Source of the DNA: a virus
IMG/VR virus record: IMGVR_UViG_3300025128_000217
Location: 1 to 29,695 of that record
Direction: 5' to 3' (one strand)
Length of the DNA: 29,695 nucleotides
Below the pieces are notes generated by a model. That model ran no database searches. It was not told the origin of the DNA and saw nothing but the letters and a program-made list of their open reading frames with translations. Position numbers and translations under genes: made by a program. Below are positions 2,872-21,330 of the stretch, piece after piece (positions within the stretch are counted from its first letter, which is position 1; each line of letters opens with the position of its first letter).

Positions 2872-3279
2872 ATGCCAAGGTACTCATCACGATCAAAACA
2901 AAGACTAGCAACTTGTGACCAAAGGTTGCAGGATGTGTTTAATGAAGTCATTAAACATGTTGACTGCTCCATATTAGAAGGTCACAGAAGCAAGGAAAGG
3001 CAAAATAAACTATATGATGAAAAACGTACTAAGGTTAAGTATCCTAATGGTAGGCATAATTCTAACCCTTCTAAAGCCGTTGACGTTACCCCTTATCCTG
3101 TGGATTGGGAAGACCGGGAGAGACAGACCCTCTTTGCCGGGTTCGTTATTGGCATTGCTCGCAGTATGGGCATTAAGATAAGATGGGGTGGTAACTGGGA
3201 TATGTATGAAGAAAATGGTAGATGGGAAGTCAAAGACAATCGTTTTGATGACTTTCCGCATTTTGAGATAAAAGAATAA
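2872..3279 (+). CDS. Endolysin, M15-family L,D/D,D-peptidase
   Basis: Zinc metallopeptidase predicted to cut peptidoglycan stem peptides at lysis (135 aa, single domain, normal length). Visible family marks: the GHRSKERQNKLYD region at 37-49; zinc ligands H62 and D71 in RHNSNPSKAVDVTPYP; WGGNWD at 105-110; and the C-terminal DDFPHFE with H130 as third ligand. The nine-residue step from H62 to D71 is the longer spacing seen in the HN(x)nPSxAVD subgroup of phage M15 enzymes. No signal peptide is present, so it needs a holin, plausibly from the 16972-18564 cluster, which is over 13 kb away. Its position between terL and portal is unusual compared with textbook podoviruses. The stop overlaps the next start (TAATG). 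Confidence 0.9.
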   Translation: MPRYSSRSKQRLATCDQRLQDVFNEVIKHVDCSILEGHRSKERQNKLYDEKRTKVKYPNGRHNSNPSKAVDVTPYPVDWEDRERQTLFAGFVIGIARSMGIKIRWGGNWDMYEENGRWEVKDNRFDDFPHFEIKE

Positions 3280-12270: not shown

Positions 12271-15200
12271 ATGGCAAATAAATTCACCTCCAAAGAAGTT
12301 CTCAACAAAGTGTTACTAGACTCCTCTGGTAATGCAGTCACAGCAAACTCAGTAACGGCACAAGAAGCTCTTAATTCTGCTTTAGACACTACAAACAATA
12401 GATTAAATATGTCTCTGGCTGGAGGTACTATATCTGGTGATGTAACTATTTCAGGTGATTTAACTGTAAATGGTAGCAGTACATATACTTACGATGAGCA
12501 GATAGACGGTCAATTATGGTTAAAGGACTCTACAGCAAGTAGTGCAAGTCAAGGTGGTCACTTAAAATTATTTAGTGATGATGGTGCGGCTATGGCGGCT
12601 GGACATAGATTAGGTGTGATAGAATTTGCTGGTGCAGAAGATGCTTCTTCTACTATAACAGTCGGGGCTAGGATTGAAGCCTTAGCCGAATCCACATATA
12701 CATCATCTGAAAACGGTTCTGCTTTATTATTTTATACTACTGATGGTAACGCCTCTCAATCTGAAGGAATGAGAATTACATCAGATGGGAAAGTTGGTAT
12801 GGGAACCAGTGGAAATGTTGATTCTCAGCTCCATGTTCAAGATGACAGCTCAAATTGTACAGTTAAAATAGAAGCAAGTGCATCTGGTACTGGTGCAAGG
12901 TTGCAAATGATTTCAGCAACAAACGATACTGCTGAATTTTATTTAGGTGATAGTGGAGATTCAAATATAGGTCGCATTAGTTACAATCACACTTCTAATT
13001 ATTTAGCAATTCACACCAATGATACTGAGCAAATGAGGATTGACTCTAGTGGTGATGTCGGTGTAGGTACACAAGCACCTAACTATAATTCTACTGCAAA
13101 AGCATTAACTGTTCTTGGTGGTAATTCAGAAGACATAGGTTCTGTGGAAATTATAGGACATACTGATAGTGGAAGTACTGCTGTGGCAAGGTTATATATG
13201 GGTAATAGAGCTGGTAGCCAAGATGACTTAGTATATCTTGAAACTAAAACTGGTTCTGGAACATCTGATGGAGACCTTCTTTTTTACACATCTGCATCTG
13301 GTACACCTGCTGAAAGAATGAGAATTTATTCTCATGGAGCAACCTTAATTAAAGGTCAGGCTTATTTTGGTGATGATAATTTTCGTATTTATTCCGAAGG
13401 TTCTGGTGGAAGTGATAACCAAATAATTTTATGTAAATACAATAATTTACAATTAAAGAATCAGCATAATGGGGGTAATATTCAATTTTATACAGATACT
13501 TCGGGTGGAACTGCTGTATTAAATATGATAATAGACGCTGACTCTAAAATCTCACTAAGTAATAATGATGGAAATTCAAATAATACAGTCTTTGGAAAAA
13601 GTGCTTTTAATGATGGAGGCTCAGATGTAGGTGCTGATTATAATGTAGCTATTGGCGAACTTGCGATGGGAACTGGTACTATTGCGGCAGCTCAAAGTAA
13701 TACTGCTATTGGATACAGAGCATTGACAGATATTACTGGTAATGGTGGAGGTGGAGATGACAATGTTGCAATAGGATATGATGCGGCTACAAACTTGACA
13801 ACTGGCAGAAGTAGTGTGGCGATTGGTAAGGATAGTTTGGCTACAGCAACAACTACTAATTATTGTGTTGCAATCGGAGAAAGTGCTGGAACAGCAATAA
13901 GTCACTCTGATGGTGCTGGTCAAGTTTTGATAGGATACCAAGCTGGCCATGACCTTACCTCAGGCGCTGGTAATACAATGATTGGAAAATTTGCAGGAGA
14001 TAAAACTGTCTTAAACAGTTATAATACTTATGTGGGTTTTGAGAACGGAAGAGGCGATGGATTTTCAAATGTTGCTATAGGCGCACAATCTTTTGACCAT
14101 ACAGGTGGACAAGCTGATAAATGTGTAATTATTGGAACACAAGCTATGAGAGGCGACCACCAATCAGGGGCAGATGAGACTGTCGCAGTTGGGGCGGCAT
14201 CACTAGCGGCTCTTATAACAGGAGAACATAATGTCGCTATTGGATTTCAATCGCAAAATGCAAATACTGATTATGATAACAACACATCAGTTGGTCACGA
14301 TTCTTTGCGCCATGGAAATGGAAATAATAATACTGCAATAGGAAGAGAATCTGGTTTGAGTATAAGTACTGGTTCGCAAAATACTTTTCTTGGGGCATCT
14401 TCTGGTGGAGGAGCTTCGGGTTCATCTAATAGAATAACAAGTAATAATAATACTGGTATCGGTTATAAATCACTATATGATGCTAAAACAAATGCTGAAA
14501 AAAACACAGCAGTCGGGTCATTAAGTGGTGAAAATATCTCGACTGGAGATAATAACACTCTTGTGGGATTCCAATGTGGTCTTACTCTTGAAACTACAAC
14601 TCATAATACAGCTATAGGTGTTGATGCTCTTGGTGGTTCAAGCCTTGTAAGTAATGCAACTGTAATAGGTTCTCAGGCTTGTGATGCGGCTGTGACTGCT
14701 GATGCAGATGGTGTTGTTGCTATAGGATATGCCGCTCTTGGTGCTCTCACGAGTGGAGCGGCAAATGTAGCCATAGGATACCAAGCACTTGATGCAATTA
14801 CAACCTCTGCTAATAATACTGCTATTGGCTATCAAGCCCTTACTGATTGTGGAGATAGTTATTCTAATGTTGCGATTGGTAAGAATGCTGGAGACACAAT
14901 TACAAACACTGGAGGGTTAAATACTGTTATTGGTACAAACGCAGATGTATCTGCTGGTGCGGCTACGAGTCAGATTGCAATAGGTAATGGAGTCACATCT
15001 ACTCAAAATCATGAAACTGTTATTGCTCAATCTATTTGGAAAACAGTAACTAAGGCAGTTACTTGTGATTTAGGTGGAGATGACCAAAATGACCCATCAC
15101 ACGCAGCGGCAATATGTAAGATACCAAGATACGCAGTTATTACAAAAGCCTGTGCATTAGTAACAACCTTGAGCAATCAAGGAAACCACACCTTGAAACT

Positions 15201-15525
15201 TTGCTTATCTACTGATAGTAGTGGAACAGATGGAACTGTTTTAAATAATGTTCAAGATTTAATTAGTACAACCGTTGAATGTTGGTCTGGTCGTGCGGCT
15301 GATGGAACAAATAATGGTATAGCAGTAGGCAGTGGAGATACAAATAAAGTAGGATATGCCGCAAGTGCTTTAGGAACAGATACAGCATTATCTACATTGG
15401 ATACAACTGGAGCAGATTTATATGTTTACTTAGCACATAACGATAATAATTATAGTGGTAGTGATACAGACCCTACAACAGCTCCAGTAGTTGAAGTTCT
15501 GATTGAATATGTAGGAAAAGATTAA
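12271..15525 (+). CDS. Tail fibre with YadA-like head repeats (1084 aa)
   Basis: Large trimeric-fibre-type adhesin. The N-terminus (FTSKEVLNKVLLDSSGNAVTA) is probably the virion anchor. Next comes GGTISGDVTISGDLTVNGSST, a common fibre neck. From about residue 75 to 430 there are beta blocks punctuated by MRITSDGKVGMGT, MRIDSSGDVGVGT and ERMRIYSHG, the 'MRI-x-x-x-G-x-VGIGT' pattern of phage fibres. Residues about 437-913 hold 27 copies of N-x-A-I-G-x-x-A-L. The C-terminal 170 residues (from IWKTVTKAVTCDL) form a separate, cysteine-containing beta domain that is the best candidate for the receptor-binding tip. No S74 intramolecular chaperone is visible at the end. AGGA lies six bases before the ATG. 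The only two GCWGC sites I found in the window are in this gene. Confidence 0.88.
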   Translation: MANKFTSKEVLNKVLLDSSGNAVTANSVTAQEALNSALDTTNNRLNMSLAGGTISGDVTISGDLTVNGSSTYTYDEQIDGQLWLKDSTASSASQGGHLKLFSDDGAAMAAGHRLGVIEFAGAEDASSTITVGARIEALAESTYTSSENGSALLFYTTDGNASQSEGMRITSDGKVGMGTSGNVDSQLHVQDDSSNCTVKIEASASGTGARLQMISATNDTAEFYLGDSGDSNIGRISYNHTSNYLAIHTNDTEQMRIDSSGDVGVGTQAPNYNSTAKALTVLGGNSEDIGSVEIIGHTDSGSTAVARLYMGNRAGSQDDLVYLETKTGSGTSDGDLLFYTSASGTPAERMRIYSHGATLIKGQAYFGDDNFRIYSEGSGGSDNQIILCKYNNLQLKNQHNGGNIQFYTDTSGGTAVLNMIIDADSKISLSNNDGNSNNTVFGKSAFNDGGSDVGADYNVAIGELAMGTGTIAAAQSNTAIGYRALTDITGNGGGGDDNVAIGYDAATNLTTGRSSVAIGKDSLATATTTNYCVAIGESAGTAISHSDGAGQVLIGYQAGHDLTSGAGNTMIGKFAGDKTVLNSYNTYVGFENGRGDGFSNVAIGAQSFDHTGGQADKCVIIGTQAMRGDHQSGADETVAVGAASLAALITGEHNVAIGFQSQNANTDYDNNTSVGHDSLRHGNGNNNTAIGRESGLSISTGSQNTFLGASSGGGASGSSNRITSNNNTGIGYKSLYDAKTNAEKNTAVGSLSGENISTGDNNTLVGFQCGLTLETTTHNTAIGVDALGGSSLVSNATVIGSQACDAAVTADADGVVAIGYAALGALTSGAANVAIGYQALDAITTSANNTAIGYQALTDCGDSYSNVAIGKNAGDTITNTGGLNTVIGTNADVSAGAATSQIAIGNGVTSTQNHETVIAQSIWKTVTKAVTCDLGGDDQNDPSHAAAICKIPRYAVITKACALVTTLSNQGNHTLKLCLSTDSSGTDGTVLNNVQDLISTTVECWSGRAADGTNNGIAVGSGDTNKVGYAASALGTDTALSTLDTTGADLYVYLAHNDNNYSGSDTDPTTAPVVEVLIEYVGKD
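13579..15009 (+). repeat. 27 fibre head repeats, N-x-[AV]-[IV]-G-x-x-[AS]-[LG]
   Basis: Protein-level tandem repeat inside the fibre gene. Examples in order: NTVFGKSAF, NVAIGELAM, NTAIGYRAL, NVAIGYDAA, SVAIGKDSL, NTYVGFENG, NTSVGHDSL, NTAIGRESG, NTGIGYKSL, NTLVGFQCG, NVAIGYQAL, NTAIGYQAL, NTVIGTNAD. I count 27 copies spaced mostly 15-25 residues apart. The pattern is that of the left-handed beta-roll head of YadA-type trimeric adhesins. Copies are diverged at DNA level except a few near 14700-14880, so recent tandem duplication is likely only there. Confidence 0.88.
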
Positions 15526-16615: not shown

Positions 16616-16702
16616 ATGAAGCGTAGGGTAAAAATGATTATGAAACCTACGTTGATAAGCAAGGTAAAAAATTGGTTCATCTCAAAGATATGGAGGTGGT
16701 AA
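16616..16702 (+). CDS. Possible 28-aa basic peptide
   Basis: An ATG at 16616 opens a short frame reading MKRRVKMIMKPTL, then SKVKNWFISKIWRW and TAA. It is strongly basic with three tryptophans near the end, an amphipathic-helix composition. Its stop overlaps the next ATG at 16702 (TAATG), the same arrangement as real neighbouring genes. The GGAGG that serves the next gene lies inside its last codons. No clear Shine-Dalgarno of its own. It is short enough to arise by chance, so this is a cautious call. Confidence 0.4.
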   Translation: MKRRVKMIMKPTLISKVKNWFISKIWRW

Positions 16703-16854
16703 TGAATAAAAAAGTAGTAAAATTAAGGAATGGAGATTTTGAAGTTGTTAGTAAAAGTTATAACATACCTACTAAGTATGTTTATACTGAAAAGTTGCAG
16801 TCCGGGATGGAGGATAGCCGGATACGAATTAAATCAGTCAGAAGAGGAAATTAA
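16702..16854 (+). CDS. Small protein, probable N-terminal part of a frameshifted gene
   Basis: The start is ATG at 16702 with GGAGG at 16692-16696. The frame reads MNKKVVKLRNGDFEVVSKS, then YNIPTKYVYTEKLQSG, and continues to a stop at 16854 with a less natural tail (MEDSRIRIKSVRRGN). The +1 frame from about 16810 instead gives WRIAGYELNQSEEEIN and continues to 16975 with a plausible protein. Dropping one A in the word GGGATGG at about 16805-16811 joins the two halves smoothly as EKLQSG-WRIAGYE. I infer a single gene of about 90 codons, broken either by a real one-base insertion, a sequencing or assembly error, or a programmed +1 shift. Function unknown. Confidence 0.5.
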   Translation: MNKKVVKLRNGDFEVVSKSYNIPTKYVYTEKLQSGMEDSRIRIKSVRRGN

Positions 16855-16975
16855 CACTGTCTTTATTGAGATAGTAGCACATGACTCTACAATGCATTGG
16901 TACGCTGGAAACTTGTTTCACGGTGAAAACTACTGCATATTGCATAATAAATGGGAAGATGTAAGGATTAAATGA
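16730..16975 (+). CDS. Frame carrying the C-terminal part of the shifted gene
   Basis: The second frame of the pair. From about 16805 it encodes a credible sequence: WRIAGYELNQSEEEINTVF, then EIVAHDSTMHWYAGNLFHG and ENYCILHNKWEDVRIK, which overlaps the next gene's ATG by four bases (ATGA). Before that point the frame is a hydrophobic run (MEILKLLVKVITYLL...) that is probably just the shadow of the Lys/Val-rich codons in the other frame. AAGGA sits only one base before the ATG at 16730, too close to work well. A lipoprotein reading (LKSC as lipobox) is less convincing because of Lys at -2. Residues after about 25 are the believable part. Confidence 0.5.
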   Translation: MEILKLLVKVITYLLSMFILKSCSPGWRIAGYELNQSEEEINTVFIEIVAHDSTMHWYAGNLFHGENYCILHNKWEDVRIK

Positions 16976-17295
16976 GTGAAAAGCCAAAAACTGCTAGAAG
17001 TTATAGAGGTTCCATTGTTGATGACAATGCTGTTATATCCCTTAATATCAAATTCCTTGCAAATGTTATTCTTGCGATTGGTGCATTAGTCTATGGGTAC
17101 TGGAAGGTTGAGACACGAATTACAACTCTTGAAAGCAAAATGCTTGAGGCTAATGAACAGATTGGGGGTTTACTTGATAAACATATCGTGGAAGAAAGGG
17201 TTGAAAGAGCCGAGTTGGCGAAAAAAGTAGCTTTTTATGAAAAAGAATTTAACATCAATCCCCTTAGCTGGGGAAAGAAAGGAAAACGAAAATGA
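16972..17295 (+). CDS. Membrane-anchored coiled-coil protein, paralogue 1 (107 aa)
   Basis: A polar N-terminus of about 25 residues, one membrane segment at about 27-44 (FLANVILAIGALVYGYWKV), then a charged helix to 85 and a basic tail. The block IGALVYGYWKVETRITTLE is gap-free homologous to the proteins at 17975 and 18258 (shared G-A-x-x-[YW]-G-[YW]...R-[IV]-[TS]-x-[LI]-E; G37 to R49 spacing conserved). This layout fits an inner-membrane spanin or holin-associated protein of a lysis module, but no lipoprotein partner with a clean lipobox is visible, so a membrane or virion-entry role is also possible. It overlaps both neighbours by four bases. Confidence 0.75.
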   Translation: MSEKPKTARSYRGSIVDDNAVISLNIKFLANVILAIGALVYGYWKVETRITTLESKMLEANEQIGGLLDKHIVEERVERAELAKKVAFYEKEFNINPLSWGKKGKRK

Positions 17296-17543
17296 GTAAA
17301 GTAAATGATTTTTTCTTGCAATTTGGAGCGGATAAGTATATGCATTTTATGGGAGGGGCCGCCGGATATGCTATTACAGAGTCTTGGATAGTCTTAGGGA
17401 TACAAGCCTTTGGAAAAGAATTATATGATTACATAGATCACAAAGCATGGTCTAATAAGGATATTGTAGCTACTGTGCTAGGTGGGGTTTTTTCTTTTGT
17501 TGCAATGTTAATTTGGAATTTAATACCCTTTAATATATATTGA
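17292..17543 (+). CDS. Small membrane protein with DKxxHF and GKE motifs (83 aa)
   Basis: 83-aa integral membrane protein. DKYMHF at 14-19 opens a first hydrophobic stretch; GKELYDYID at 40-48 follows; a second membrane segment lies at about 57-80 (IVATVLGGVFSFVAMLIW). The order DK-x-x-HF ... GKE-x-x-D ... D-x-x-AT-x-x-G recurs in small phage and bacterial membrane proteins of the YfiM/DUF2279 kind. Function not established; a lysis-related or envelope role fits the neighbourhood. The start overlaps the previous stop by four bases (ATGA). Confidence 0.72.
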   Translation: MSKVNDFFLQFGADKYMHFMGGAAGYAITESWIVLGIQAFGKELYDYIDHKAWSNKDIVATVLGGVFSFVAMLIWNLIPFNIY

Positions 17544-17545
17544 TA

Positions 17546-17668
17546 ATGAGTGAACAAAAGGAGTCATTAATTAGGGGACAGGCGGTGTTAATGCTAGTTA
17601 GGAATGTTGGCAAAGGGTATATTAGCGCTAGAATTATAAAAAGATTTTTAAAGTGTACTAAGAGGTAA
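17546..17668 (+). CDS. Small basic protein (40 aa)
   Basis: A short frame between two membrane-protein genes, starting two bases after the previous stop: MSEQKESLIRGQAVLMLV, then RNVGKGYISARIIKRFLKCTKR. Strong positive charge toward the C-terminus with an amphipathic-helix pattern. It fills almost exactly the gap to the next gene (17671), which supports it being real. No Shine-Dalgarno is obvious. Function unknown. Confidence 0.55.
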   Translation: MSEQKESLIRGQAVLMLVRNVGKGYISARIIKRFLKCTKR

Positions 17669-17670
17669 GC

Positions 17671-17988
17671 ATGGACTTTATGGCGGTGTATGGAGAGGCA
17701 GGTATGATTGGTGTCGTAGGGGCTATGTTTGTCTACTTGGTAATATCGCTGTCTAACAAGTCAGCACAGCAACAAGAAACTCTAGAAAATTTAAAAGTGG
17801 AAAACAAAGGTCAAAGTGAAACTTTAGAAAATATGGAAGGTATGATTATAAAGTTAATTGGTAGGTGGAATACCTCTGATGATAAATTAGATAGAAAGTT
17901 TGATGCAATTACTAAAGAGATTAATGACCTCGACAACCAAGTTTCAGAGTTAAAAGGTTCTATGAGTAGAATAAATGGCAGACACTAA
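17671..17988 (+). CDS. Membrane-anchored coiled-coil protein (105 aa)
   Basis: An N-terminal membrane segment at about 9-27 (EAGMIGVVGAMFVYLVISL), then a long polar helix with heptad character: QQQETLENLKVENKGQSETLENM ... FDAITKEINDLDNQVSELKGS. It resembles its neighbours in plan but lacks the conserved R-[IV]-x-x-[LI]-E block, so it is either a more distant relative or an independent protein. An N-out holin or an inner-membrane spanin are the family options; neither is proved. It overlaps the next gene by 14 bases. Confidence 0.72.
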   Translation: MDFMAVYGEAGMIGVVGAMFVYLVISLSNKSAQQQETLENLKVENKGQSETLENMEGMIIKLIGRWNTSDDKLDRKFDAITKEINDLDNQVSELKGSMSRINGRH

Positions 17989-18271
17989 ACCTATATCAGA
18001 TTCAAGCAGTTTAAGTATTTCATTGCCAATGCTTTTTCAGGCTATTGGATTGATAGGTGCTATGGTATGGGGATATGGTGAATTAAATTCAAGAATATCT
18101 TTTTTAGAGTATCAGGTAAGTATTAATGAAGAACATATTAACAGAATGGAAGAAGATGCTAAGGCAAATCAAAATGCTGAAATTCCTGCTGATATTAAGC
18201 AAAATCAAAGAATTAAATATTTAGAAAAAGAACTAGATAGATTGCGAAACAAACCAGATGCAGGGCGTTAA
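17975..18271 (+). CDS. Membrane-anchored coiled-coil protein, paralogue 2 (98 aa)
   Basis: Polar N-terminus, membrane segment at about 18-34 (PMLFQAIGLIGAMVWGYGE), then a charged coiled coil (SRISFLEYQVSINEEHINRM, and a second heptad run IKYLEKELDRLRNK). The block IGAMVWGYGELNSRISFLE aligns without gaps to the proteins at 16972 and 18258, with G28 and R40 at conserved spacing. It starts inside the end of the 17671 gene and overlaps the 18258 gene. Same possible roles as paralogue 1; the tandem arrangement points to duplication within this phage lineage. Confidence 0.75.
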   Translation: MADTKPISDSSSLSISLPMLFQAIGLIGAMVWGYGELNSRISFLEYQVSINEEHINRMEEDAKANQNAEIPADIKQNQRIKYLEKELDRLRNKPDAGR

Positions 18272-18455
18272 GATAGATATGAAATTTGCTTTTAATGTTA
18301 TTAGCTTACTAGGCGCTTTGGCATGGGGTTGGTATCAAATGGAGCTAAGAGTTACGGCTATAGAAATGAAAATAGAAAACAATGAAAAGATGGCAAAGTT
18401 AAGAGATGAAATAGCAGGATTGAAACATGGACAGTTTAAAAGTAGCGGCGATTAG
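18258..18455 (+). CDS. Membrane-anchored coiled-coil protein, paralogue 3 (65 aa)
   Basis: The shortest member. Membrane segment at about 9-26 (KFAFNVISLLGALAWGWYQ) followed by ELRVTAIEMKIENNEKMAKL and a short polar tail. LGALAWGWYQMELRVTAIE aligns without gaps with the 16972 and 17975 proteins (G19 to R31, same step of 12). The start at 18258 gives a 14-base overlap with paralogue 2; an in-frame ATG at 18279 (MKFAF) is an equally good start and would place the membrane segment directly at the N-terminus. The last codons overlap the start of the 45-aa gene at 18427. Confidence 0.72.
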   Translation: MQGVKIDMKFAFNVISLLGALAWGWYQMELRVTAIEMKIENNEKMAKLRDEIAGLKHGQFKSSGD

Positions 18456-18564
18456 TTTTAGTAATTACATAATAGGTTTAACACAAATACATGAAGTATT
18501 GCAAATGATCGTTGCATTGCTTTCTATTGTATTGCTTTTAATGAATATAAAAAAAGGAAAATAA
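18427..18564 (+). CDS. Small holin-like membrane protein (45 aa)
   Basis: MDSLKVAAISFSNYIIGL, then TQIHEVLQMIVALLSIVLLLMNIKKGK. One strong membrane segment (about residues 24-40) followed by a short basic tail, the layout of minimal single-pass holins (pinholin or S-type class III size). The IHEVLQMIVALLSIVLL part resembles short holin-like proteins I know from marine phages. It fills the gap between 18455 and 18566 precisely. It could permeabilise the membrane for the endolysin, which lacks a signal peptide; this is inference. Confidence 0.62.
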   Translation: MDSLKVAAISFSNYIIGLTQIHEVLQMIVALLSIVLLLMNIKKGK

Positions 18565-18565
18565 A

Positions 18566-18793
18566 ATGGATATTAAATCAATGCTTGTCAAGCTTGCAGA
18601 GGAGCAGGCTGAAAAAATGCAGGAAGAAGCCGTTAAGCATTTAGGTTCAGATGAAATGACCGAAAAGATTGCTAGTGCAATTAATAAGCGTATTGACATC
18701 CCATTCGTATCTGAAGACAAAGAACAAATATTTTTTGAAAAAGTAGTTGACGTAGTTACAGATGTACTCGAAGGCGTGTTCAAGGGTAAGTAA
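18566..18793 (+). CDS. Small soluble helical protein (75 aa)
   Basis: 75 aa, acidic and helical: DIKSMLVKLAEEQAEKMQEEAVKHL, then EKIASAINKRIDIPFVSED and IFFEKVVDVVTDVLEGVFKGK. No membrane segment. The central NKRIDIPFVSE-x-KEQ stretch looks conserved and I recall close relatives in uncultured marine phages, always next to short membrane proteins. Function unknown. The stop overlaps the start of the nozzle-like protein by one base (TAATG). The Shine-Dalgarno is weak (AAAAGGAAAATAAA before the ATG). Confidence 0.7.
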   Translation: MDIKSMLVKLAEEQAEKMQEEAVKHLGSDEMTEKIASAINKRIDIPFVSEDKEQIFFEKVVDVVTDVLEGVFKGK

Positions 18794-21330
18794 TGCCTAA
18801 ACAGCACTTAGTTCTAAATGATTTTTCTGGGGGTCTTAATACATATCAAGATTATAGAGACTTGCAGATTAACGAGCTTTCTGAGTGCTTTAATTTTACA
18901 TTCCAAAAAGGTAGGTCTGTAATAACTAGAGGTTCTTTTGCAACTCACGGCACTGCTCCCTCCCATGCGGCTACTATTGCTGGGGGCTATGGGCTTGCAT
19001 CTTTTGAATCTGATTATTCTTCTACTAAACACGAGGCTGTAGATACAAGCAAGTCTACCGATTTAGAATTTATTAATGATGGAGTTAAAGATAATCCGGG
19101 CACTGCTGGTTCAGGTACCCTGCTTGGGCGTTTTGTTCAGGGTGGCCCTATTGTAAAAGGCCAAAGCACCAAAGAGCTTTTTGACACTATTGCTACCAAT
19201 GTGTCTCCGGGTGGACAAATAGCAATTAAAGGAACCGTACGCAACAATGGCATTTACACTGTTTCAGGTGTCGGTGTGGGTATAAATATTGACGGGGAAA
19301 CAGGTATAAATGTTATCGAAGTTGAGCCTAGTAGCGGCACATTTACTACAGAAACGATAGCGGCCAATTCTACGACCAATGGAGCTGTTAGCATTACAAC
19401 TCATGCACTTGGTGAAAATTCTCTTGTGTTGTCTGACGTTGCAAATTCTGAAATTGACATTTACAATCTAACAAATGACAGTGCTGGATTTGTAAATAGG
19501 ATTTCAACAGGGACGGATGAAGATATTGGTACTCAGGTTACTATCTCTCCAGAATATTCTTTTTATATCGTAGACAATGTGGTGCGGGTTAGCGATGGTA
19601 AGGATATTCCAACATTGCAAAAAGTAAAGTGGTATGGGTATATTGATCGGCATCATTTTAGAGGGGTACAGCACAGCTCTACGGATTTACGAGGTGAGGC
19701 TACAGTACATAAAGGTTGGTTTTCAAAAGATAATACACTGGCACCACCCGCCAGTGCAAGGACGGCCACAACAAACGTATACCCCACTGCAAATCAAGGA
19801 TTTAGTATAGACTACGATTCGACAAATGCAAATGACAATGCTTTTTTTGAAACAAAGACGTGGAAGATAGCCCTTAGTTTTGTGTACGATGGAAATCAAG
19901 AATCATTATTGTACATACCTTCCTCCAACAACACGTTTACAACGGTGCTTGGAAATGACTTAAGGTTGCGTGTAATGGCTCAGATTAACAACACCGGATA
20001 CGATGCAAGAATTAGCGGGGGCAGGATGTATTGCAAAGATGATACTGATGATACTGCAAGTTGGTTACTTTTGGCGAATATTGACTTGGTAGAAGGTGTT
20101 TCTGCCTCACTAACGGGGGACAAAAGCAGTTGGGAGGCCGCAAGTGCAACTGCTTTGTATGCGGATATATCATTGACGAATATGAACTTTGATACCTTTG
20201 AAAGTATTAATGGTTACTCTCCAGAGATTAGTGCTAATAGCATAGGTCGACTAGGAGAGGGTTGGAGAACTGGTATTATAGCTAATAGAAGAGCTTTTGT
20301 TGCTAACGTAAAAGTAAAAAACACTTACGATGAAAATGTTACAGCGTATGGAGACAGGATTATGTTTAGCCTGCCAAATAGATTTGATACCTTTCCATCT
20401 TTTAATTTTATTGATGTAGTTAAGGGTGATGCGGAGGCTTATCTGAAACTACATTCTTTTGCAGACAGGTTAGTAGCACTAAAACATAATTCTGTTCAGA
20501 TAATTAACATTTCTTCACCAAGTGAATCAGGCTGGTTCTTAGAGGAGGATATTAAGAATAATGGGGTCAACCATCCTGCGGCATCTTTTCGCTCGAATAA
20601 AGGCATATTATGGGCCAATAAAAAGGGTTTGTTTATATATACCGGTTCGCAAATAGCAAACCTTATAGATAAAAAGATAGATCAGTCTGACTGGTCTTCT
20701 TTTATAACAAACTACTCAATAGTAGGTTATGATGGTAATGCAGATATGGCGATAGTAATTAGAGACTCAGAGAACTCAGCGGCTAATCAAGGAGATGCTT
20801 ATATATACGATTTTAAAACAAATGCTTGGTCTGCCCATACGGACTTGTTAACAGCTAGTGCTGGTAAGTACACTAACTTTGCCACTGACTTTAATGGTGA
20901 CTTGATTGTTGGTGTTAAGAACTCAACCAATATAGATATTAAAAAGTTTAGTCATACTACAAATGCAGTTGTTTCAACAGATGCGGCATATTTTACTACA
21001 AAAGATTTTGACTTTGGCTTTCCCGGTTTAAAGAAAAAAATATATTCTATAACCGTAACGTATAAAACGGATAGAGATCAAACCAATCCAATATCGTTTG
21101 CACTAGACGGCCATCCTACAGGTTTTACAGAGGTAACTGGTAATTTTTCAGACACCTCTAATTGGAAAAGACTACGGGCAACATTGTCTTCTCCCCAAAC
21201 TTGTCAGTCTGTTAGGATAAGAATAAAAAATAATAGTAATGACACTAGAGATAATGATGATGGAATACAGATTAATGATATTAGTGTAGAGTATAGGCTT
21301 ATTAAAAAGGGCAGAGTAGCCTCAGACTAA
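18793..21330 (+). CDS. Tail nozzle/hub-type structural protein (845 aa)
   Basis: Large tail protein. The N-terminus LVLNDFSGGLNTYQDYRDLQ ... ELSECFNFTFQKGRSVITRGSF carries the FSGGLN-x-x-x-D-x-x-D-x-x-x-x-EL pattern common to podovirus tail tubular/nozzle or stabilisation proteins. The rest is beta-rich with propeller-like blades (SVQIINISSPSESGW, GLFIYTGSQIANLID, YIYDFKTNAWSAHTD, DLIVGVKNST) and two less conserved stretches (about 95-330). The C-terminal 150 residues (from DFGFPGLKKKIYSITVTY) form a separate beta-sandwich. It probably closes the tail tip and guides DNA exit. It follows the small gene cluster with a one-base overlap. Confidence 0.8.
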   Translation: MPKQHLVLNDFSGGLNTYQDYRDLQINELSECFNFTFQKGRSVITRGSFATHGTAPSHAATIAGGYGLASFESDYSSTKHEAVDTSKSTDLEFINDGVKDNPGTAGSGTLLGRFVQGGPIVKGQSTKELFDTIATNVSPGGQIAIKGTVRNNGIYTVSGVGVGINIDGETGINVIEVEPSSGTFTTETIAANSTTNGAVSITTHALGENSLVLSDVANSEIDIYNLTNDSAGFVNRISTGTDEDIGTQVTISPEYSFYIVDNVVRVSDGKDIPTLQKVKWYGYIDRHHFRGVQHSSTDLRGEATVHKGWFSKDNTLAPPASARTATTNVYPTANQGFSIDYDSTNANDNAFFETKTWKIALSFVYDGNQESLLYIPSSNNTFTTVLGNDLRLRVMAQINNTGYDARISGGRMYCKDDTDDTASWLLLANIDLVEGVSASLTGDKSSWEAASATALYADISLTNMNFDTFESINGYSPEISANSIGRLGEGWRTGIIANRRAFVANVKVKNTYDENVTAYGDRIMFSLPNRFDTFPSFNFIDVVKGDAEAYLKLHSFADRLVALKHNSVQIINISSPSESGWFLEEDIKNNGVNHPAASFRSNKGILWANKKGLFIYTGSQIANLIDKKIDQSDWSSFITNYSIVGYDGNADMAIVIRDSENSAANQGDAYIYDFKTNAWSAHTDLLTASAGKYTNFATDFNGDLIVGVKNSTNIDIKKFSHTTNAVVSTDAAYFTTKDFDFGFPGLKKKIYSITVTYKTDRDQTNPISFALDGHPTGFTEVTGNFSDTSNWKRLRATLSSPQTCQSVRIRIKNNSNDTRDNDDGIQINDISVEYRLIKKGRVASD

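Follow-up and report, generated by a model that had tools for sequence, protein, structure and literature searches.

The analysed DNA (the window) is a stretch of 29,695 nucleotides covering positions 1 to 29,695 of IMG/VR record IMGVR_UViG_3300025128_000217. It encodes a terminase large subunit, a portal and a major head protein (phrog_38, phrog_156 and phrog_1328), and its source is an uncultured marine podovirus-like phage. None of the terminases of cultured phages is close, the best match having 26% identity, and the portal matches only two records, at 25% over one third of its length. Related IMG/VR contigs number in the hundreds, with portals 87–93% identical in the best 80. Three GTDB contigs that carry protein A, described below, come from MAGs of Marinimicrobia, Flavobacteriales and Gammaproteobacteria; they are probably mis-binned phage, and we rejected them as a guide to the host.

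Genes of the membrane-protein cluster

The cluster is flanked by a repeat-rich, fibre-like open reading frame (12271–15525) and by the large late open reading frame T (18793–21330). All of its genes described here lie on the plus strand. Protein A (16972–17295, 107 residues) contains one transmembrane segment at about residues 28–47, which lies within a single predicted helix spanning residues 8–93. In the AF2 model this helix is unbroken, so that the transmembrane segment and the coil are continuous. Both termini of A are invariant, with the pattern TARSYR..DDN at the N-terminus and N-NP-SW-K at the C-terminus. Protein B (17975–18271, 98 residues) is composed of an N-terminal transmembrane segment and a coiled coil, and protein D (18258–18455, 65 residues) of a short N-terminal transmembrane segment and a short coil. 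The open reading frames of all three are present where the initial annotation had placed them. The start of B overlaps the end of C by 14 nt, and the start of D overlaps the end of B by the same length. Protein C (17671–17988, 105 residues), an N-terminal transmembrane segment followed by a coiled coil, recurs in related cassettes.

A putative lipoprotein of 81 residues, L (16730–16975), is encoded directly 5' of A, and the two genes share a 4-base stop/start overlap, ATGA. The N-terminus of L is hydrophobic and resembles a signal sequence; it is followed by a lipobox-like Cys23 and a small mature domain. Five positions are invariant among 38 L sequences: C23, H56, C69, H72 and E76. C69, near the C-terminus, is the one invariant non-lipid cysteine of L; in A, the half that forms the coil has almost no cysteine. 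The lipobox takes forms such as LSSC, IVSC, VIGC and LTGC, and the copy in the window, LKSC, carries an atypical lysine. The AF2 model of L contains a helix and a small β-sheet (mean pLDDT 75), and a search of the PDB for this fold gave no match. Within 16672–16975 of the window, a conserved small open reading frame, G3 (...GDFEVVSKSYNIP...), overlaps the signal-peptide end of L (MEILKLLVKV...) in a different frame; both G3 and the overlapping L frame recur in relatives.

The remaining genes of the cluster are small. Y (17292–17543, 83 residues, two hydrophobic segments) and S (17540–17668, 42 residues, conserved in some relatives) are optional. Y and its alternative Y2 (L193:4019-4312) are both small and multi-pass; they share a recurring H...E...D pattern and have no Pfam match. 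E (18427–18564, 45 residues) has a single transmembrane segment and a basic C-terminus. F (18566–18793, 75 residues) is amphipathic and stands directly 5' of the endolysin gene in several relatives. F and the shorter F2 (L235:5869-6045) are alternative forms of one soluble or amphipathic family, with cross-hits of 7e-27.

Homology and age of the paralogues

The initial annotation had proposed A, B and D as paralogues on the basis of a shared block across the transmembrane segment and first heptads. These 18-residue blocks are gap-free, and the step from glycine to arginine is 12 in all three. In BLASTP of single sequences, one comparison each, A matched D with E=5e-11, B matched D with 3e-8 and A matched B with 1e-5. 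Relatives were gathered with A, B, D and Dp as queries, and clean families were obtained by exclusive assignment; Dp is a fourth member of the family, found adjoining B in locus L138. Run over 17,950 open reading frames, the A-family HMM recovered Dp (6.6e-13), B (1.6e-10) and D (4.8e-7), and its best value against the remaining membrane families of these cassettes was 0.13.

Profile–profile comparison with hhalign gave probabilities of 97% for A–B, 97% for A–D, 91% for B–D, 97.5% for A–Dp and 94% for B–Dp. As controls, alignment columns were shuffled within segments, or with the hydropathy class of the transmembrane segment and the heptad phase kept, in 150 trials each. For each of the five pairs, 0/150 shuffles equalled the observed score. 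The similarity of A, B and D thus holds under control for membrane bias, and the comparisons confirm that the three are homologous beyond transmembrane and heptad bias. An independent profile, phrog_20984, which has no assigned function, matches A (1.5e-5), B (5.3e-6) and 24 of 26 A members; these matches argue for homology but give no mechanism. Median pN/pS is well below 1 (0.37 for A, 0.30 for B and 0.21 for D), which indicates genuine genes.

The initial annotation had also pointed to C as a fourth protein of the same plan, with weaker similarity, and its membership of the family was not supported. BLASTP of A against C gave E=30, no similarity. The hhalign probability of this pair is 20%, and heptad-preserving shuffles scored as well in 12/150 and 26/300 trials; for B and C they did so in 33/150. 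On these shuffled controls C was rejected as a fourth paralogue of A and B, and a relation of C to A, B or D is not demonstrable. The comparison of Dp with C (80%, 0/300 shuffles as good) is a weak signal that leaves open a remote kinship of C through Dp. Another candidate, the W family described below, was not established as a further paralogue, its profile probability to B being 44%.

In tblastn searches of cultured phages, B, C and Dp had no homologues and A gave only chance-level terminase matches (0.8). An annotated counterpart of the cassette proteins was not found in Roseobacter phage CRP-5, which has the closest terminase (26%). The combined family had nothing beyond coiled-coil matches in a PDB sequence search, and A has no Pfam match.

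A, B and D are each a family of their own in uncultured marine phages. On a tree of 70 sequences, B, D and Dp form one group each, as does A with the exception of a truncated A-like fragment from locus L261. The paralogues hence predate the sampled phages, and a recent tandem duplication is rejected. Of the tandem duplication with divergent tails that had been described, the duplication and the divergence stand, as the homologous proteins keep the transmembrane/first-heptad block and differ in their tails; the tandem arrangement applies to B and D only, since Y, S and C separate A from B.

Cassette composition in related phages

In relatives, the genes follow one of two orders: A-C-(B)-(D)-[E or X or X2]-[F or F2]-endolysin-T, or (B)-Dp-C-[...]-endolysin-T. 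We counted the paralogues in distinct loci that contain C and enough upstream sequence. A alone is present in 38 loci, A with B in 31, B with Dp in 24, Dp alone in 12, A with D in 11, all of A, B and D in 6, and D alone in 1; the window holds the fullest set, A with B and D. A and Dp occur together in 0 loci. Since the loci were collected with the paralogues as queries, these proportions are biased, but the bias does not explain the mutual exclusion of A and Dp. The mixture of one to three paralogues suggests an interchangeable part of a membrane complex, not an accident of sequence.

The lipoprotein differs with the cassette type. L lies upstream of 124/152 A genes, overlapping A by 4 nt in 62 and by 7 nt in 38. 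A second lipoprotein family, Q (IFSCQ...GKT.EELS.EMFE.DSL...), lies 5' of Dp, for example in loci L149, L296 and L306. L is present in 60/75 A-type loci, leaving 15/75 without it, and in 7/29 Dp-type loci, a count from profile searches that includes divergent copies. Q is present in 0/75 A-type and 27/29 Dp-type loci (Fisher test between locus types, 4e-7 for L and 6e-23 for Q). Since both types have C, E/X2, F and the endolysin in common, the membrane protein and the lipoprotein appear to have been exchanged together between cassettes. The pairing of A with L and of Dp with Q could, however, follow phage lineage instead of physical partnership.

An endolysin gene is found no more than 3.5 kb downstream of A in 47/110 loci and of Dp in 42/58, so that most A loci have none within this distance. 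At one and the same position, relatives encode either an M15-type peptidase (phrog_465, 1.9e-41) or an enzyme of a lysozyme type (phrog_315, 2.9e-38). This switch from M15 to the phrog_315 type at one cassette position is seen at L119:3013-3495 and L122:3482-3964. In the window, an M15-type peptidase endolysin (2872–3279, plus strand; phrog_465, 3e-37) is encoded next to the terminase, about 13 kb from the A/B/D cluster, which indicates that the cassette of this phage is split. The assignment of 16972–18455 to a lysis cassette is well supported.

E, X and X2 are small, and the single hydrophobic segment of each lies in the direction of its C-terminal end. They occur in 75, 17 and 30 of 149 loci, respectively, and never two together. 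The W family (MKLNTNIS...FGFMK.DI...), built of an N-terminal transmembrane segment and a coil, fills the same slot in some of the remaining loci, directly 5' of F in L120, L116 and L118. We infer that the E/X/X2/W slot is a candidate holin slot. Runs of very lysine-rich small open reading frames lie between the membrane genes and the endolysin in several relatives, as at L202:4596-5572.

Candidate function in host lysis

The endolysin neighbours in relatives and the coupling of A to a lipoprotein make a hetero-oligomeric membrane complex, spanin-like or of holin/antiholin type, plausible. We tentatively favor, at somewhat less than even confidence, a reading of the cluster as part of a lysis cassette whose inner-membrane protein, A or Dp, acts together with a lipoprotein as in two-component spanins, B and D supplying additional subunits or regulators. 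A and Dp would be single-pass inner-membrane proteins with a long helix, each paired with its co-encoded lipoprotein, A with L and Dp with Q. Once the endolysin has cut the cell wall, the inner-membrane and lipoprotein subunits would bridge and disrupt the outer membrane. Because B and D keep the transmembrane segment and first heptads while their tails differ, co-assembly through this block is a natural hypothesis: the block is the probable oligomerisation surface, and B and D would most likely assemble with A, either adding to the complex or regulating it. D has little coil and might, as a truncated subunit, behave in a dominant-negative-like way.

Several features agree with such a role, among them the endolysin context, the coupled lipoprotein and the long helix of A. 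Like the inner-membrane subunit of a spanin, A has one N-terminal transmembrane segment, according to both hydropathy and AF2. Seven of 26 A members weakly match the Rz-like spanin profile phrog_739 (best 6.5e-5), but the A of the window is not among them, and C matches the profile too (4e-4), so coiled-coil bias may contribute to these matches. Other observations weigh against the reading or leave it undecided. The lysine and arginine counts did not settle topology for A, B, D and Dp, charges around the A-family segment being 2.2 on the N-terminal side and 2.1 on the C-terminal side. We know of no role in spanins for an N-terminal segment such as the invariant TARSYR/DDN of A. The atypical lipobox of the window, the 15/75 A loci without L, the possible effect of lineage on the pairing and the distance of about 13 kb to the endolysin in the window also count against it.

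Two-component spanins, such as lambda Rz/Rz1 and T4 PseT.3/PseT.2, pair a small single-pass coiled-coil protein of the inner membrane with a small cysteine-bearing lipoprotein, encoded near an endolysin, as A would be paired with L. The T4 proteins, of 117 and 83 residues (PMC6139136), are close in size to A and L with 107 and 81. At least one cysteine is present in 507/528 two-component systems, often in the o-spanin (PMC6139136), and Cys69 of L is invariant in its 38 sequences. Genes for lipoproteins are seldom found among those of phages (PMC6139136). The cassette differs from these systems in that the membrane partner appears to have one to three paralogues and in that significant sequence similarity is absent beyond the weak phrog_739 matches. 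Gene order differs as well: in embedded and overlapped spanin layouts the o-spanin gene has its start within that of the i-spanin (PMC6139136), whereas L precedes A and the 4-nt overlap would class the pair as separated.

The main rival remains a holin/antiholin set, in which A, B and D are single-pass, class III-like proteins whose mixed oligomers time permeabilisation, with the divergent tails tuning the timing. We regard it as possible though rather unlikely. The endolysin neighbourhood suits it, as do the common transmembrane/first-heptad block, which would allow mixed oligomers, the shortness of D, and the overlapping starts of B with C and D with B, which suggest coupled expression. Class III holins of the T4 T type also combine a single transmembrane segment with a soluble domain, and a single segment in a lysis cassette is a trait that A, B and D share with them. 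However, A is tied to a lipoprotein, is much shorter than T4 T, to which we found no sequence relation, and is mostly one long rigid helix with invariant soluble termini, atypical of holins. The separate and exclusive E/X/X2/W slot, just 5' of F and the endolysin, resembles the holin position. Searches with 16 members of the combined family gave a single holin-family match that passed 0.01 (0.0097, to phrog_1296).

Some superinfection-exclusion systems, too, consist of a lipoprotein and a membrane protein. This composition, together with gene content that differs among relatives, would fit envelope proteins that serve exclusion or host-envelope remodelling and merely share a late operon with lysis genes. 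We consider this improbable: exclusion genes are mostly optional, unlike A or Dp, one of which nearly always accompanies C, and the cluster adjoins the endolysin. The superinfection barrier raised in the initial annotation gained no specific support. A role in the virion or in DNA ejection is more improbable still. The flanking fibre-like and large late open reading frames would accommodate it, but lysis is the better fit for several adjacent transmembrane proteins accompanied by a lipoprotein and an endolysin, and comparison with known structural proteins gave no convincing similarity.

The set had been called undescribed, and this holds against the open-access papers searched, among which we found no description of a lysis cassette that couples multiple homologous membrane subunits to a lipoprotein. 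Lysis cassettes of Gordonia phages likewise combine small membrane proteins in different ways next to the endolysin genes, with up to four membrane genes each, of which 'none are duplicated' (PMC9671378). In the present cassette, by contrast, three of the membrane proteins are homologues of one another, and a lipoprotein accompanies them.

Extending the spanin-like reading, we speculate, with low confidence, that these phages use a combinatorial lysis complex of one to three ancient paralogues, with A or Dp as the core and B and D as modifiers, and a cognate lipoprotein. The mix of subunits would set the timing of lysis or the breakage of the outer membrane, and core and lipoprotein would be exchanged together between phage groups.

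Lysis genes are mostly unannotated in uncultured marine phages, and 91 phages, including marine cyanophages and vibriophages, have no recognisable spanin (PMC6139136). A conserved, lipoprotein-coupled membrane family encoded beside endolysins is a concrete candidate for this missing step. With their different paralogue combinations, these phages also offer natural material for testing how mixed oligomers in the membrane might set lysis.
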